Shown here in pieces: positions 17,050-23,602 of a DNA stretch of 64,000 nt (within the stretch, counting starts at the first letter, position 1; each line of letters begins with the position of its first letter). The DNA is from Metapseudomonas boanensis (GTDB taxonomy: Bacteria > Pseudomonadota > Gammaproteobacteria > Pseudomonadales > Pseudomonadaceae), in assembly GCF_018704125.1 (NCBI RefSeq), contig NZ_JAGTIS010000017.1, positions 1-64,000 of the forward strand. Reading direction: 5' to 3'. Below the pieces are notes generated by a model, which saw only the letters and a list, made by a program, of their open reading frames with translations, did no database searches and was not told the origin of the DNA. The position numbers and the translations under genes are program-made.

Positions 17050-18406
17050 TTGTTGGGGGGCATCCTCAAATAAGTGCCGAGGTTCCTTCAGCAGATAGCA
17101 ACCGCCGCGACTTGCGCGGCCCGTTCAACTCGCACGTCCAGATGTTCAGGCCGTTGTCCGGCTTGCGGTGCGGTTGCAGCTTTTCGAAGCGTTTTTGCAC
17201 CCACGTACCAATCGGCGAGCTGATTCTGCTTGGCAAGTGCGGCCATTTGCGGGTGTTCTTGCGAGTAGCGCTGGGACACGCCTGGGCTGACCAGAAAGGC
17301 GGTGTCAGTTACGGCGTTGTATCAACGCCTTGGCGTCATTGATGATGAGCTTGCGGTTCTGGATGCGTTGCTGCAGCCAAGTGATGAAGTGTTCGCCGGA
17401 AGGCAGTTCCTGCAAACGTCCGCTGTCCGAGGAGGACAGGAGGGGGGGGCGGGTGGTGGCGTTGGATTGTCCGCATAAGAGGGCGCGGATGGGTCATCGA
17501 GGGCGATTGCTGGCGATGGTTCAACCGCTGGCGCCGACGCGGGCAACTCGGCATCGGAGGGGCCGATTATTGCCAGCAGGGCGTCAACATTATCGATAGC
17601 CGGTGCTGCCGGTGGAGCAGGTGTGTCGGTTGTTGGTAAGGCATCACCCGTTTCGGTTGTCGGTGTTGTTGGCGCGTTATCATTGGGCTCCAGCTTCATC
17701 ACTACGGTGCCGGTGAACGACGCTGGTTGATCGTCGCCCTCCCAGATCAGGGCGGGGGTAAGTCGTAGCAGCGTGAACGTGTGCGACTAGCCTGCTGCGC
17801 TCGTGATGGTGGCGCGCCAGATGGCCTGCCATCAGCGGTGGGTTGGAACATGCCGTGATCCTGCAGCACGTTGAACACGACGGTATTGTTGGTGGGAATA
17901 CCGTCGATGCCCTGGGCCAGCAGGTGCGCGCGCAGCTTGTTCGACACCGTCTTGCTGACCAACCACAGTGCGTCCTGGGTCAGCCAGCCGTCCGACGCCT
18001 GGGGCTGGTTGAGTTCAGCTCCGCCTTCAGCAGGTAGCGCAGGCCATCGATTAGCTTGCGCTGCAGGGCGCTCCAGTGGGCCGTGCCAAGAGTGCCAGTG
18101 ACTACCGTCGCCGTACTCAACATGCAGGTCGACGGTGATCTTGCCGAGCTCATGCAACAGCGCAGCGTAGGCCGTGGCGGCGGTCCAGGCTTCCGCCTGC
18201 ACGACCTGATCTTCGGGGGTGATACCGGTGGGCAGTAGATACGATTGTCTCAGCTTGAGCGCATACGCCACGATCTCGAGACCGTGGTCCAGCAAGCCGC
18301 CGAGGTAGGCATGGTGGTGGTTATCGGAGGCAGGCAGTTGTTGGACCAGCTCGGCATAGCGTTCCAACGGCGCTAGGTAGAGTGAAGCGAACGGCTTGCC
18401 CGAGAT
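17050..18406 (-). pseudogene. MobH/TraI_2-type ICE relaxase, decayed
   Basis: Three minus-strand frames rebuild a MobH relaxase of PFGI-1/clc-type integrative elements. The first (about 18406 to 17785) reads LAPLERYAELVQQLPASDNH, then the HD-like signature HHAYLGGLLDHGLE and LLHELGKITVDL. After a frameshift, LIWEGDDQPASFTGTVVMKLEPND leads into a Pro/Thr-rich linker. A second shift in an 8-G run near 17443-17450 leads to LPSGEHFITWLQQ and finally YSQEHPQMAALAKQNQLADW, the TraI_2 C-terminal domain. The N-terminus was replaced by the truncated IS3 element at 18400. The gene cannot support transfer. Confidence 0.75.
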
Positions 18407-18785
18407 GCTCACTCAACTGGTCTATCAGCGCATACGATCGAGTTCGTCCGACATCAAGAGAGCGGTAGCCTTTTTTAATATCGCTTTCTCCCGCTCCAGC
18501 CGGTTGAACCGGGCTTCCAGCTCCTGGATCTTCTGCTGCTCAGGCGTCAACGCCTTGCTCTTTGGGGTTACACCCTGGCGCTCCGGCTCGAGCTGCTTCA
18601 CCCAACGGCGCAATGCCGAGTCCACCACTCCTGGGGAACGGCAGGCCTCGATATGGCTGTAGCCTTGATCCAGCACCAAGGCGGCGGCCTCACGCTTGAA
18701 CTCAGCGGAAAACGTACGTCGTTGCTTACTCATCAGACACCTCTCTCACGGCGAGGATTTTCGCCGAAATCGGTGTCCGGGATCA
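18400..18785 (-). mobile_element. truncated IS3-family insertion sequence
   Basis: The outer end begins TGATCCCGGACACCG when read on the minus strand from 18785, then comes a complete orfA. Only about ten codons of orfB (LIDQLSEHLG) remain before the sequence changes abruptly into the relaxase fragment near 18400. The DDE integrase domain and the other inverted repeat are lost, so the element is dead. Confidence 0.75.
18425..18733 (-). CDS. IS3-family transposase OrfA
   Basis: 102 residues. The HTH_Tnp_1 domain begins at residue 7 (TFSAEFKREAAALVLDQGYS) and is followed by a leucine-zipper region (KIQELEARFNRLEREKAILKKATALLMSDE). OrfA binds the IS ends and regulates transposition by OrfAB. 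Because orfB is truncated, this OrfA has no catalytic partner here. Confidence 0.85.
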   Translation of the reverse strand: MSKQRRTFSAEFKREAAALVLDQGYSHIEACRSPGVVDSALRRWVKQLEPERQGVTPKSKALTPEQQKIQELEARFNRLEREKAILKKATALLMSDELDRMR

Positions 18786-18859
18786 GTAGACCACTACATA
18801 GCGCCTCCCGCGGCCTCGTGGGGGAGGGCAGAGGCCGGCAAAGCCCAAGGACTATAAAG

Positions 18860-19321
18860 ATGAATGTAGCTCGCGAGTCATCTACCACCGCCCTGGAAGC
18901 CTTGGCGCAGCGAGCGTTCCAACTACTCTCACCGTCCGGGCATTCAACGGAATCTTTCGCAGTGCCTGGCACCAGTATGTCGCTCAACGAGCTGCTTTAC
19001 GCCGCCCGGCGCGCACCACTTCTTCAGAAACGTCCGATGGTATGTCGCGCGCTGGGCATTTCTGAACGGACTTTGCGCCGCTGGCTGCACGAGCCGTCTG
19101 CGCACTTGAAGCCCGCAAATGGGGAGCGGTTGCTCAGATTGATTGCCATATCCGCCCACGCGGAAATTGTGTTTGATTCCGGTGCTGCAGCAGAACGCTG
19201 GTTCACCGTCCCGGCTATGGGGCTAGACCGCCAGGTCCCCCTGGACATGATCAAAGAGTCCGCCGACTACGAGCAGTTGGCTGCCTTTCTGGTGCGGCTC
19301 GAGTACGGTGTATACCAGTAA
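18860..19321 (+). CDS. orphan MbcA/ParS/Xre (DUF2384) antitoxin-like protein
   Basis: 153 residues from the ATG at 18860. A helix-turn-helix region (MVCRALGISERTLRRWLHEP, about residues 55-74) is followed by the DUF2384 toxin-binding domain (RLIAISAHAEIVFDSGAAAERWF). It ends with LVRLEYGVYQ, as in antitoxins of RES-domain toxins. No RES gene follows: the 185 bases downstream are non-coding and then a phosphatase-type gene begins. It is therefore an orphan or the remains of a toxin-antitoxin pair. Confidence 0.7.
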   Translation: MNVARESSTTALEALAQRAFQLLSPSGHSTESFAVPGTSMSLNELLYAARRAPLLQKRPMVCRALGISERTLRRWLHEPSAHLKPANGERLLRLIAISAHAEIVFDSGAAAERWFTVPAMGLDRQVPLDMIKESADYEQLAAFLVRLEYGVYQ

Positions 19322-19506
19322 GGGTCAGGCTCGCGGGGTACGTTGGCTGCCCTCAGCACGTAGTAGCCAAGGTAGTGGTCGAACCTCCGACGCGGCGCTC
19401 GGTACTTGCGCGTGACGAACGGAGAGCGAGGGTAGGGGAGGCAGCCTTATTAGGAGGCGGCAGCAGCCAACTGCGTCTGGGCGTATAAGATAGTTCCTGC
19501 CTTACC

Positions 19507-20298
19507 TTGCTCGATCAAGTAGTAGCTCAGGTGCTCCAGGCCGGGAAGCGGCTGTCTGCCGAATGGGCCCGAGCCGAGGGGCCGCGCGGTCATGGTGACA
19601 AGGCACCCGTGGACGTGGAGATCGAGCAACAACTGCGTGAAGCGTTATTACAACTATTGCCCTGCGACTTCTGGGGCGAGGAAACCGGGCATGCCCTGAC
19701 CGGAGACTCATGGTGTTGGGTAATCGATCCCAACGACGGCACCAGCGACTTCCTGAAGGGCCGCAAAGGCTCGGCCATCTCGGTCGGGCTCTTAAGAGAC
19801 ACGCTGCCGGTACTGGGTGTTGTCCACGCGCCGGTCACGCCAGATCGTGGAGCTGACTGCATCGCTTGGGCCGAGGGATTGCCGCACCTGCTGCGCAATG
19901 GCCAACCAGTCGTGAATGACCTCCGCCAGCAGCGACTAAGTGGTCTGGCCGTGGTCATGGTGAGTGCGACTGCCGAAGCTAAACCCCAGATAAACGCTGA
20001 GCTCTGTGCACCCGCTCAGTTTCATGCGATGCCAAGTATTGTCTACCGCCTGGCGCGTGTTGCGGCCGGTGACGCGGTTTGCGCAGTCTCGCTGTACCCG
20101 GTGTCTGCCCATGACGTGGTAGCTGGGCATGCCTTGCTGCGTGCCAGTGGCGGAGTACTGCTTGATCAGGATGCCCAGCCAGTCCAGTACCGCACCGAGA
20201 GCGAAATGGCCGTTGTGTCCAATCGCTGCTTCGGTGGTGCGCCGCAAGCCTGCCAAGACTTGCTAAGGCGTGACTGGGAGCGGGTACTGCGATGCTGA
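19507..20298 (+). CDS. inositol monophosphatase/CysQ-family phosphatase
   Basis: 263 residues if the TTG at 19507 is the start; a stop lies seven codons upstream and no ATG precedes the conserved part. Mg-dependent phosphatase motifs are present: GEETG (about residues 58-62) and WVIDPNDGTSDFLKG (about 74-88), which provide the metal ligands, and the C-terminal YPVSAHDVVAGHALLRASGG. Note DPNDGTSDF where the common form is DPLDGTxNF. It may hydrolyse inositol monophosphate or 3'-phosphoadenosine phosphates. It sits in mobile debris with no related gene nearby, so the substrate is open. Confidence 0.7.
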   Translation: MLDQVVAQVLQAGKRLSAEWARAEGPRGHGDKAPVDVEIEQQLREALLQLLPCDFWGEETGHALTGDSWCWVIDPNDGTSDFLKGRKGSAISVGLLRDTLPVLGVVHAPVTPDRGADCIAWAEGLPHLLRNGQPVVNDLRQQRLSGLAVVMVSATAEAKPQINAELCAPAQFHAMPSIVYRLARVAAGDAVCAVSLYPVSAHDVVAGHALLRASGGVLLDQDAQPVQYRTESEMAVVSNRCFGGAPQACQDLLRRDWERVLRC

Positions 20299-20454
20299 GT
20301 CTTAAATTGCCTTCCAGTGCCAGTGTTGAGTGCCACGTTGCGTTCCAAAAACAGGAAAACACTGGGTCATAAGCGGCCAAAAGTGCCACATTGCTTTCCC
20401 CGCAAGAGTTGGGTGCGCTAACAGAAATGAAACCGGTATGTTCTACCAAATATC

Positions 20455-20775
20455 CTATTTACCATAATATACATTATGCGAAGCCAGTGGCGCGGACCGG
20501 CTGGTGAGCATCACCCGATCCTGCATCCAGCCACCGCTGGCCTGCGGATCGGGTGTGTCAGGTGCGTTGTAACCACCATCAGAACGCCACTGGCCGTTCT
20601 TAGGTTGGAATCCTTTCTTCACGTAGCGCACCGATGCGCCAGAAGCCCGACAGAGGCGGATCGACCCTAGTGCGGCCGGCAGCATGTCCTCAGGCCATGG
20701 GTTGACCTCTAGGGCGATGAAGCTTGCTCGTGGGCACTCGTCTCCACGATATCAGCCTCGGGCGCCATCTTGTTC
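20455..20775 (-). pseudogene. broken frame ending in the dif-like site
   Basis: From about 20758 on the minus strand, an open frame without a clear start reads GDECPRASFIALEVNPWPED, then GASVRYVKKGFQPKNGQWRS, and ends LASHNVYYGK, inside the dif-like site. I recognise no family. Its position between the Zot-like frame and the attachment site suggests the tail of a phage gene or its 3' neighbour. Confidence 0.3.
20457..20484 (-). other. dif-like XerCD recombination site
   Basis: Read on the minus strand: XerC-type arm TTCGCATAA, 6-bp centre TGTATA, XerD-type arm TTATGGTAAAT. Compared from memory with the E. coli dif 28-mer it differs at three positions, and with the Pseudomonas form at about two, one of them a G for T in the XerD arm. 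Either this is the chromosomal dif site near the replication terminus, or it is the attachment site of an element that uses host XerCD. The flanking phage-like frames suit the second reading but do not exclude the first. Confidence 0.7.
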
Positions 20776-21038
20776 TAGATGTAGTCATAACCCAGCCACC
20801 CGCCGCCGATGAGCGCCAAAGGCGACAGCACGAGCACCGCGAGCATCTGCCAGCTCGCCGATATGTTGGCCCGCTTATCCATCACCTGCTCGTCGCCAGC
20901 GTTCAAGACCTCAGATTCGCTCTGCGTGGCGGACCTGTAGAACTGATAGACAAACTCCTTGTAGGTCGAAATGGGCTCCCGAATCTTCAGCTTTGCCGGA
21001 AGATTGGCCCCAGCCGGACACCCGCTATAAATCTTCAT
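20775..21038 (-). CDS. possible Zot-like filamentous phage protein, fragment
   Basis: 87 residues. The middle (STYKEFVYQFYRSATQSESE) followed by charged residues and one membrane helix (WQMLAVLVLSPLALIGGGWL, about residues 63-82) has the layout of the end of the cytoplasmic ATPase domain and the membrane anchor of Zot/pI assembly proteins of filamentous phages. The Walker A/B part is not present upstream. The assignment rests on layout and the nearby dif-like site, so it is weak. Confidence 0.3.
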   Translation of the reverse strand: MKIYSGCPAGANLPAKLKIREPISTYKEFVYQFYRSATQSESEVLNAGDEQVMDKRANISASWQMLAVLVLSPLALIGGGWLGYDYI

Positions 21039-21152
21039 TGTGAAGCGCTAATAGTTGATCTTTTGATCGCTTGGCCAGCGCCGCCAGATTTCGTCTAGTA
21101 CGAGAACCACACCGTTGGGGATGCGATTCCGCTGACAAGGCTCTCATCTCGA

Positions 21153-22115
21153 CTAAGTCGATCGGAGCAAGGTGGATGTCATTGTCAGCGACTCACCGAG
21201 CTGCTGCCCCGGAAAGTGCACTACTGCTTCGACATAGCGCAGTGCCGGCTTGGCATCGCGCCAACCGACATAGTCCATCAGGGCCTTCTGGTCCCAACCA
21301 CTGCGCGTGGCCCAGGTGGCAAAGCCGCGGCGCAAGGAGTGGCTGCTGTACAAGTCGGCCGGCAGCCCTGCCCCTTGCAACACCGCGCGCAGCAGCGGGA
21401 TGACGCTGTGTGGGTGCAGTGCCTGCTCGCTCAGATGGCCCCAGCGGTCGATGCTGCGGAATACCGGCCCGCAGGCAATGCCGGCGACGCTGATCCAGTC
21501 GCTATAGGCCTGTACCGGACACAGCCGCGCCAAGGCAGGCGCCTGGTAGGTCTGGCCCTGGTTGTCGCGATCGCCCTTGCTCCAGGGCAGGAAGAACTGC
21601 ATGCCCTCCCCCGGTCGCACCTGGATGTGCTCCACCTGCAGGCGGCACAGCTCATCACTGCGAAAGGCGCGCCAGAAACCGATCAGCAGCAGCGCAGCAG
21701 CTGCGGCAGATCCCCTTCGCCACGCGCCGCCGCCCCGATGCGCTCCAACCACGCAACGCACTGTTCCAGTTCGCGCAGCTGCAGCGGCTCGGCCTGCTTC
21801 TCCGGTTTCGGGTGCGCTGACATGCCACTGCGCCAGGGCGGCCAGGCGCAACTTCAGCGTGCTGCTCGCCAGGCTGCCGGCATGGTCCACCAGGTAACTC
21901 ACGATGGCGTCGCTGGTGGCCGGCAGGAAGCCGCCCCAGCTCACCTCGAAGTGCTCGATCGCCTGCTGGTAGCTGCGCCGGGTATTAGCGCGGGTGCCCG
22001 CTTGCAGGTAGCGCTCGACTTGCTGATTCACCGCCCCTCCCCGCCCTGACGTACCGGCTTTCGACTCCAATTCGCTCAAAAACCGGCCTGACCTTGGATA
22101 ATTCGTGATTATCAA
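21153..22115 (-). CDS. tnpS: TnpS-like tyrosine recombinase, central segment out of frame
   Basis: 320-residue open frame. The N-terminal SAM-like domain (RYLQAGTRANTRRSYQQAIEHF) and the C-terminal catalytic domain (FWRAFRSDELCRL, HSLRRGFATWATRSG, DYVGWRDAKPALRYVEAV with the Tyr nucleophile) match TnpS cointegrate resolvases of Tn4651-type Tn3 transposons. Between about 21850 and 21700 the encoded text is nonsense (PETGEAGRAAAAARTG). The +1 frame there carries the expected family sequence (PEKQAEPLQLRELEQCVAWL). Two compensating indels, plus about 25 missing residues, have therefore scrambled the centre without a stop. It is probably inactive. Partner gene tnpT is divergent. Confidence 0.65.
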   Translation of the reverse strand: MIITNYPRSGRFLSELESKAGTSGRGGAVNQQVERYLQAGTRANTRRSYQQAIEHFEVSWGGFLPATSDAIVSYLVDHAGSLASSTLKLRLAALAQWHVSAPETGEAGRAAAAARTGTVRCVVGAHRGGGAWRRGSAAAAALLLIGFWRAFRSDELCRLQVEHIQVRPGEGMQFFLPWSKGDRDNQGQTYQAPALARLCPVQAYSDWISVAGIACGPVFRSIDRWGHLSEQALHPHSVIPLLRAVLQGAGLPADLYSSHSLRRGFATWATRSGWDQKALMDYVGWRDAKPALRYVEAVVHFPGQQLGESLTMTSTLLRST

Positions 22116-22210
22116 ATATTAACTCATGGTTGATTTAGCGTGAAACAGTCGCGAATAATATACTGTAATTGCATAGTATGTATCACAGTACGTAATTGTA
22201 GGGGGCCAAT
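22116..22210. other. probable resolution site between tnpS and tnpT
   Basis: This 95-base AT-rich spacer contains inverted motifs, notably TACTGT ... ACAGTA (about 22161-22194) around AATTGCATAGTATGTATC. In Tn4651-like elements the core recombination site for TnpS and TnpT lies in this divergent spacer, which also holds both promoters. Confidence 0.5.
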
Positions 22211-23140
22211 ATGGCGCGTGGTGGTATCAACAAGGCCGTAGTGCAAAAAGCCCGCACCGCTATCCTCGCCCGCGGTGAGCACCCGAGCATCGACGCGGTG
22301 CGCATCGAACTCGGCAACACTGGGTCGAAAACCACCATTCACCGCTACCTGAAGGAATTGGACGCCGCCGAGCAGGGCCAAGGCGGGGCGGTCTTCACAC
22401 TTAGCGAGCAGCTCAGTCATCTGGTGGGGCAGCTCGCCGATCAGCTCCAGGACGAAGCCCAGGCTGCGGTGGCTGGAGAACGCGAGCAATTGGCCCGTGA
22501 ACGTCAGGGGTATCTGGCACAGGTTCGCGAGGCTGAGAGCCGTATTCAGCAGCTCGAAGGTCACACCACTAGCCTTGCCGAGCAGCTACAAGCGCTGCAG
22601 GCCGCCCAGCAGGAGGCGCAGCAGCTGCGCCAACAGACCGAGGTCGAGAACGCCCGGCTGCTGCAGGCCAACCGCGACCTGGAAGCGCGCGTTCAGGATC
22701 GCGACGAACAGATCCGTTCGCTGGAAAATAAGCATCAACACGCCCGCGAGGCCTTGGAGCACTATCGCCAGGCGAGCAAGGAACAGCGCGAGCAGGAGCA
22801 ACGCCGGCATGAAACCCAGACGCAACAGCTGCAACTGGAGCTGCGTCAGCTGCGGCAGACGTTGATCGTCAAGCAGGACGAGCTGACTCAGCTGAACCGT
22901 GACAATGCGCGCCTGCACACCGAGGCCCGACAGCACCAGAAGGAGCAGCACAGCCAACAGCGTCTTCTGGAGCAGAAATCCCAGGAACTGGCAGCCCTGC
23001 AGAGTCAGCTCAGCACCGAGAAAACCGCAAATATGCTCCTCGAGCAACGCCATCAGGACCTGCAGAAGAAGCTAAAGAGCGTCAACAGATCCAAGGCCAG
23101 GCAGCAGGCAGCAGCAACGCCAGTTCACCGAAATGAATAG
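22211..23140 (+). CDS. tnpT: TnpT-like / KfrA-type coiled-coil DNA-binding protein
   Basis: 309 residues. Residues 1-55 are a KfrA N-terminal DNA-binding domain (INKAVVQKARTAILARGEHP, SKTTIHRYLKELD). Residues about 75-295 are one long coiled coil rich in Gln, Glu, Arg and Leu (RQQTEVENARLLQANRDLEA). TnpT proteins bind the resolution site and assist TnpS. KfrA proteins of plasmids share the same design. Being divergent from the TnpS-like gene with a short AT-rich spacer favours TnpT. No Tn3-type tnpA or terminal 38-bp repeat was found nearby. Confidence 0.7.
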   Translation: MARGGINKAVVQKARTAILARGEHPSIDAVRIELGNTGSKTTIHRYLKELDAAEQGQGGAVFTLSEQLSHLVGQLADQLQDEAQAAVAGEREQLARERQGYLAQVREAESRIQQLEGHTTSLAEQLQALQAAQQEAQQLRQQTEVENARLLQANRDLEARVQDRDEQIRSLENKHQHAREALEHYRQASKEQREQEQRRHETQTQQLQLELRQLRQTLIVKQDELTQLNRDNARLHTEARQHQKEQHSQQRLLEQKSQELAALQSQLSTEKTANMLLEQRHQDLQKKLKSVNRSKARQQAAATPVHRNE

Positions 23141-23395
23141 TGAATATAATTGGCAGCGCGCACCTGCCACTCGAACTCGGACTATCTATTTCTTAGGCAT
23201 CGCTCACGCGCTCGCCTCGATTTGCCCTTACTCGGCCCCACACGTGGACACTGACGCGCGCATCTGTCTTTTCCCGCACGCTTCTGCTTCTGGTCGGGCA
23301 TGGATCAGGCCAACGCCAGAAACCGATCGCCAAAGCCCGCCACTTCGGTGACAGTGCCAGGTCCGTCAATTACAATTTGATTAACATCCCTCAAA

Positions 23396-23602
23396 TTGAA
23401 TGAGCAGGTATCTGTGGAAAGCAAGACTGCGCGACTTACCGTACTCATCGACCCCCACAAGAAGAAAGCGTTCGAGGAGCTGTGCGCAGCACAAGACCTG
23501 ACGCCTTCGCAGGTGGTGCGACAACTGATCCGCGAGTACCTGGACAATCATGGCGTCACTTACGTCACCAAGAGCAAGCTGGCTAACAACACCAAAGCAT
23601 GA
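23396..23602 (+). CDS. small ribbon-helix-helix (CopG/Arc-type) protein
   Basis: 68 residues from a TTG at 23396; a GTG at 23414 would give 62. The beta strand TARLTVLID and helices KKKAFEELCAAQ and TPSQVVRQLIREYLDNH form a standard ribbon-helix-helix DNA-binding fold. It may repress its own promoter or the SulP gene that converges on it. No toxin gene adjoins it. Confidence 0.6.
   Translation: MNEQVSVESKTARLTVLIDPHKKKAFEELCAAQDLTPSQVVRQLIREYLDNHGVTYVTKSKLANNTKA

Follow-up and report, generated by a model that had tools for sequence, protein, structure and literature searches.

Filamentous phages integrated at dif are named in Vibrio, Xanthomonas, Ralstonia, Enterobacteriales and other bacteria. 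The CTXphi prophages of Vibrio cholerae lie in tandem to one side of dif; they integrate through a single strand exchange by XerC alone, which gives one new functional dif (PMC4246890, PMC3089051). The UPphi phages of Enterobacteriales also form tandem repeats at dif, with typically no more than the first fifteen bases of dif repeated at each junction (PMC7307601). Pf phages are filamentous and belong to Pseudomonas, but instead of dif they use tRNA, tmRNA or direct-repeat sites, with an integrase of their own (PMC7549136). Pseudomonas inoviruses or tandem prophages are mentioned in PMC10534721 and PMC6813254, and in the available parts of these two papers we found no dif integration reported as their own. 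On the host side, the XerC arm of dif is more variable than the XerD arm across Proteobacteria, which has been explained by co-evolution with XerC (PMC2731167), and in P. aeruginosa the GC skew switches at dif and KOPS are biased toward it (PMC6199493).

Here we analyse a stretch of 64,000 nucleotides from Metapseudomonas boanensis (the window; positions 1 to 64,000 of contig NZ_JAGTIS010000017.1, our C9), in which a dif-type 28-mer adjoins pieces of a zot gene. On the evidence of the sequence, we consider it highly probable that the 28-mer is a working chromosomal dif and that the adjoining zot is the rest of a filamentous phage integrated via the host's XerC and XerD. Unlike the PAO1 dif, the window's dif is flanked by a zot remnant. 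Compared with CTXphi, the window retains zot pieces only, no attP or far junction having been found there; UPphi, as far as PMC7307601 describes them, are other phages in other hosts, and are not decayed. What the window holds is a probable inovirus remnant and not a member of the dif-integrated CTX-type class.

The dif-type site and signals of the terminus

The first-pass annotation had described a dif-like 28-mer that keeps both recombinase arms and the centre, with two or three differences from known sites, and this description holds:

20457..20484, minus strand: dif-type XerCD site of 28 bp, with 2/28 differences from the PAO1 dif
20474..20484, minus strand: XerC arm, GCTTCGCATAA
20468..20473, minus strand: central hexamer, TGTATA
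20457..20467, minus strand: XerD arm, TTATGGTAAAT
19507..20298, plus strand: inositol-monophosphatase-family gene, on the XerD side

The minus-strand sequence of the site is GCTTCGCATAATGTATATTATGGTAAAT, and 26 of its 28 bases are the same as in the PAO1 dif as printed in PMC2731167 (GATTCGCATAATGTATATTATGTTAAAT). The two mismatches are at position 2, in the XerC arm (C, not A), and at position 23, in the XerD arm (G, not T); the centre is identical. The XerD arm is the same 11-mer as in G001, G006 and G011 (genomes other than the window's are given by such handles), and the XerC arm is the 11-mer that the phages carry in G005, G010 (inner units), G359 and G151. A mechanically called ORF at 20455-20685 (minus strand) covers the site and is without homologue in the searches run; it was tried as a zot tail or coat protein and rejected, since searches of Pfam, PHROGs, phage records, viral contigs and the protein collection gave nothing at the thresholds applied. 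Directly adjoining the XerC arm is a GC-rich nested hairpin at 20485-20600, which is not recognisable as a phage attP. The dif-proximal minus-strand hairpin (20440-20700, z = -3.74) was likewise rejected as a phage attP, since in the relatives the folded site is a phage-phage junction, and that site has a partner on the far end of the unit.

When the window was scanned with a 22-base core at up to 3 mismatches, 20457-20484 was the only place found (mean 0.05 in 100 shuffles), the palindromic core giving one match per strand. The draft assembly comprises 65 contigs and 5.71 Mb, of which C9 makes up 90,045 bases. The 28-base pattern, again at up to 3 mismatches, gave 1 match in the 65 contigs (gaps lie outside the scan) and its reversed control gave 0; the search for another dif that had been proposed at first pass thus yielded no second site in the assembly, although in a draft of this kind one may lie in a gap. 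Across the 18 genomes of the genus, the window's included, the first pattern matched in 15, once each, and a relaxed core found a dif-type site in 18/18, with one additional 3-mismatch match elsewhere in each of G005 and G009. Seven of the nine relatives that have the site on a contig of more than 5.7 Mb carry it at 46-53% of the contig; in the contigs' own coordinates it is away from mid-contig in G008 (85%) and G011 (22%).

A 13.8-kb stretch on the XerD side is 100% identical between G001 and G003 to about 36 bases from dif, and the dif sequences of the two differ. Most of it is also present in G007, at 96-99% and farther from dif; this common stretch is possibly an island.

The orientation of KOPS (GGGNAGGG) carries most of the argument for the terminus. 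Left of dif in C9 there are 5 on the plus and 1 on the minus strand, and right of it 0 on the plus and 14 on the minus, so that 19 of the 20 KOPS of this 90-kb contig are oriented toward dif (p = 4e-5). In the dif flanks (4-35 kb per side) of the other 17 genomes of the genus, 208 are oriented toward dif and 9 away; a KOPS bias toward dif is also found in PAO1 (PMC6199493). Of the two checks suggested around 20.5 kb in the first-pass annotation, that of KOPS polarity therefore gave a clear switch at dif. The other, on GC skew, stood only in part: the cumulative skew of C9 does have its maximum close to dif (at 20331-20332, about 125 bases away), but the signal is weak, with an amplitude of only +45 and values of +0.027/-0.021 in the 10-kb flanks, and a two-segment fit over the 90 kb chooses 73,299, away from dif. 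It is for these reasons that we lean on KOPS. One protein of the genome is above the curated cut-off for XerC (C12:666193); a second full-length Xer protein, at C3:171983, is below the XerC cut-off, the only model used, and is taken as XerD.

An assembly in 65 contigs and the mobile debris around dif would suit a different view, in which the 28-mer is an IMEX copy carried by a mobile element or by a plasmid, while the chromosome's true dif is hidden in a gap between contigs. We believe this to be very improbable. An IMEX or plasmid copy does not sit well with a KOPS polarity switch of 19/20 at dif or with the absence from the assembly of any other site within 3 mismatches, and the dif of G016 adjoins the same left flank, a 92% identical copy of the inositol-monophosphatase-family gene being found next to it as well. 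With no other dif in the assembly and the KOPS switch at the site, we favour a chromosomal dif at the terminus, which was one of the two alternatives put forward at first pass.

The zot remnant and its relatives

The XerC side of the site carries the following features:

20757..21047, minus strand: zot remnant that aligns with the G359 Zot over residues 194-288 at 44% identity; an in-frame stop lies close to its end
21054..21122, minus strand: zot remnant that aligns with the G359 Zot over residues 111-133 at 70% identity
21153..22115, minus strand: tyrosine recombinase ORF (Pfam Phage_integrase), past the truncated zot start
22211..23140, plus strand: KfrA_N DNA-binding protein, divergent from the recombinase

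The possible Zot fragment seen beside dif at first pass is real, though weak by family models alone and firm only through the Zot of G359. The ORF at 20775-21038 (minus strand) matches PHROG 197 (Zot-like) at E = 1.9e-4, and the stretch 20709-21047, which has two TAG stops, at E = 6.8e-6, in a PHROG search that was also positive in 5/14 control genomes. Pfam reported no family for this ORF, and over the whole genome the Pfam Zot model matched only on another contig (C3, E = 7.1e-4). With family matches as weak as these, the identification depends on the G359 relative: a search with the window's ORF finds a protein of 465 amino acids in G359 (49% identity, E = 1.2e-16), which is Zot both by Pfam (E = 3.8e-20) and by PHROG 197 (E = 5.2e-69). 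Residues 134-193 of this protein, its first 110 residues and its tail have no match at the window's locus. By tblastn, the G359 Zot does match the window's 19001-23500, whereas the proteins of the G005 and G010 arrays gave no match there at E 1e-3. One phage record matches the zot piece (38% over 70% of the piece), no viral contig was confirmed as its relative, and the 671 bases 20440-21110 had no DNA match among phage records. No phage gene other than zot was recognised on the XerC side, and contig C9 yielded neither a far-end junction or second XerC half-site of the phage nor, in keeping with the single site there, an attP1/attP2 hairpin.

The zot piece has a match in 18 of 398 genomes of the family, the window's included, and the stretches around zot were read from all 17 others. 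In seven of these (G359, G258, G292, G312, G354, G151 and G362), zot lies in repeated units at dif, on the XerC side and with its tail toward dif. The unit of G359, the best match, also encodes a G2P-type replication protein, and the XerC arm at this dif is identical to the window's. In the remaining ten there is no dif within the stretch read; in eight of them zot is within ~6 kb of a contig end, and G358 and G043 are without dif although ~9-10 kb were read on either side of zot, so some of the zot relatives lie elsewhere than at dif. Two genomes of the genus, G005 and G010, have dif arrays of six and ten units, respectively, whose Zot differs from the window's. As with CTXphi prophages (PMC4246890, PMC3089051), the relatives' arrays are tandem and on one side of dif.

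Some arrays are more elaborate. A single dif in G010 has ten filamentous prophage units, ~70 kb in all, beside it, and each of the first four contains an additional XerC half-site, ~330 bases in. In G151, three units of ~1,950 bases directly right of dif precede phage units of 6.4 kb, and the same junction ends each; the small units look like satellites of the phage.

Is the zot piece beside dif then a trace of integration, or did it arrive by chance or inside another mobile element, next to a dif that is itself chromosomal? The remnant ends at the recombinase/KfrA module, the far phage junction was not found in C9, and 10/17 genomes with a Zot relative have no dif in the stretch read, all of which would agree with a chance arrival. 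Its placement speaks against one: like zot in all 9 arrays read at dif, the remnant occupies the XerC side and points its tail to dif, from which it is 273 bases away. Counted from dif, zot is likewise the first large gene of the unit in G359, G258, G005 and G010, and the closest relative found, G359, is among these four; further ORFs lie between dif and zot in G292, G312 and G354, and the three small units in G151. We thus hold a chance arrival to be unlikely and prefer integration through XerC and XerD. The second alternative of the first-pass annotation, a scar of a phage that uses XerCD, is then likely also right, given that a prophage array at dif holds the closest zot relative found; KOPS, the single copy and this relative together favour both alternatives at once. 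Neither half of the contrary picture, a perfect dif elsewhere and flanking frames with no XerCD-dependent relative, was found.

Mobile debris around the site

Beyond zot, the surroundings of dif contain further pieces of mobile DNA. The XerC model, run on the genome, does not pick out the recombinase ORF at 21153-22115. In G002, an 88% identical stretch of it lies ~1.0-1.4 kb from dif and a second one, at 82%, ~19 kb away, so the gene is a recurrent neighbour of dif. Against its best relatives on plasmids (78%), the window's recombinase aligns in two pieces and may thus be broken. The recombinase/KfrA pair may be the TnpS/TnpT module of Tn4651-type transposons; the literature and two plasmid neighbourhoods gave no clear answer on this identity. 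Left of the inositol-monophosphatase-family gene are:

17747-18733: fragment of a MobH/PFGI-1-class relaxase, adjoining an IS3-type transposase piece
18653-19321: Xre/MbcA/ParS-type antitoxin gene

The relaxase fragment and the transposase piece are perhaps the remains of a conjugative element near the terminus. A 61-kb XerCD island at the window's dif was also considered. The right dif flank of G013 matches C9 at 81.4-89.7 kb, and in other near-complete genomes the same sequence is 68 kb to more than 1 Mb from dif; distances near the terminus thus simply vary, and we rejected such an island.

Array junctions and the origin of the XerC arm

In the relatives, phage-phage junctions keep only the XerC half of dif, the other half being an XerD-like arm behind an extended centre. 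In 8/8 arrays folded, the zot-coding strand is predicted, by folding alone, to form a long hairpin that pairs the junction site with its inverted counterpart; pairing is predicted for the other strand there too, and G151 was folded at its small-unit junction. This anatomy, with an attP1/attP2-like hairpin and junctions that have only the XerC half, resembles that of CTXphi as given in PMC4246890 and PMC3089051.

On a CTX-type route, the active dif should gain its XerC arm from the phage, and the arm it had before should come to lie at the outer junction. An outer end could be read in 7 of the 9 arrays at dif; G359, with a truncated outer (third) unit, and G362, where the contig ends, were left out. 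The outer-end XerC arm differs from that of the active dif in 6/7 (G005, G010, G292, G312, G354 and G151), by 1-3 bases; the difference is only one base in G005 and G010, and there is none in G258. In G010 the change is inside the array, where the outermost two units share the outer arm and later ones carry another. These changed outer arms fit, at the level of sequence, a CTX-type integration that hands the phage's XerC arm to dif. Since the window's XerC arm is also that of the G359 phage, it may be phage-derived. The arm alone is no proof of this, as G004 and G014 have the window's XerC arm and yet no zot match near dif.

The XerC arm is also the variable part of the site in the genus, with 10 arm types in 18 genomes as against 3 for the XerD arm. 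According to the co-evolution account of PMC2731167, arms vary because XerC proteins vary, in which case the window's arm would be ancestral, with nothing in it from a phage. There is some agreement with this in our data: XerC protein and XerC arm distances correlate across the genus (Mantel rho 0.34, reached by 5/2000 permutations), as opposed to XerC protein and XerD arm distances (rho 0.03, 730/2000), and both the arm of G004 and G014 and the single-base difference in two of the six changed arrays count in its favour. An ancestral arm accounts less well for the 18 genome pairs whose XerC proteins share 95% identity or more, in which the XerC arm still differs in 16/18 (mean 2.94 of 11 bases) and the XerD arm in 10/18 (mean 0.67 bases); nor does it account well for an arm that changes across the array in all but one of the arrays with a readable outer end. 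We regard it as possible but doubtful, and tend, with some reserve, toward the proposal that the XerC arm of each CTX-type phage stays behind in the active dif, the previous arm being displaced to the outer end of the array, and that the window's dif is such a hybrid, which has outlived its phage.

Based on this, we suggest the following course of events. The host would resolve chromosome dimers at the window's dif in an FtsK-driven reaction, XerD acting first and then XerC. An inovirus would have entered as a folded single strand, by an XerC-only strand exchange of the CTX type, so that the chromosomal XerD arm and centre stayed and the active dif received the phage's XerC arm. Later deletion and the entry of the recombinase/KfrA module may have destroyed the phage, and selection would have kept dif after the phage had decayed.

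The mechanism as such is ordinary and already known, and what deserves a test is the possible phage origin of the XerC arm. A literature search on arm replacement found no paper; it was incomplete, and is weak evidence of absence. The arrays with a different outer XerC arm suggest direct overwriting by phages, and they offer a test of the co-evolution account.

The dif and its phage remnant most likely place the window at the terminus of replication and account for some of the debris found in that region. If the proposed exchange of arms is true, the dimer-resolution site would be rewritten from one side by phages, and the variety of XerC arms would be a record of past infections; incoming phages would then reshape a site that the host chromosome needs.
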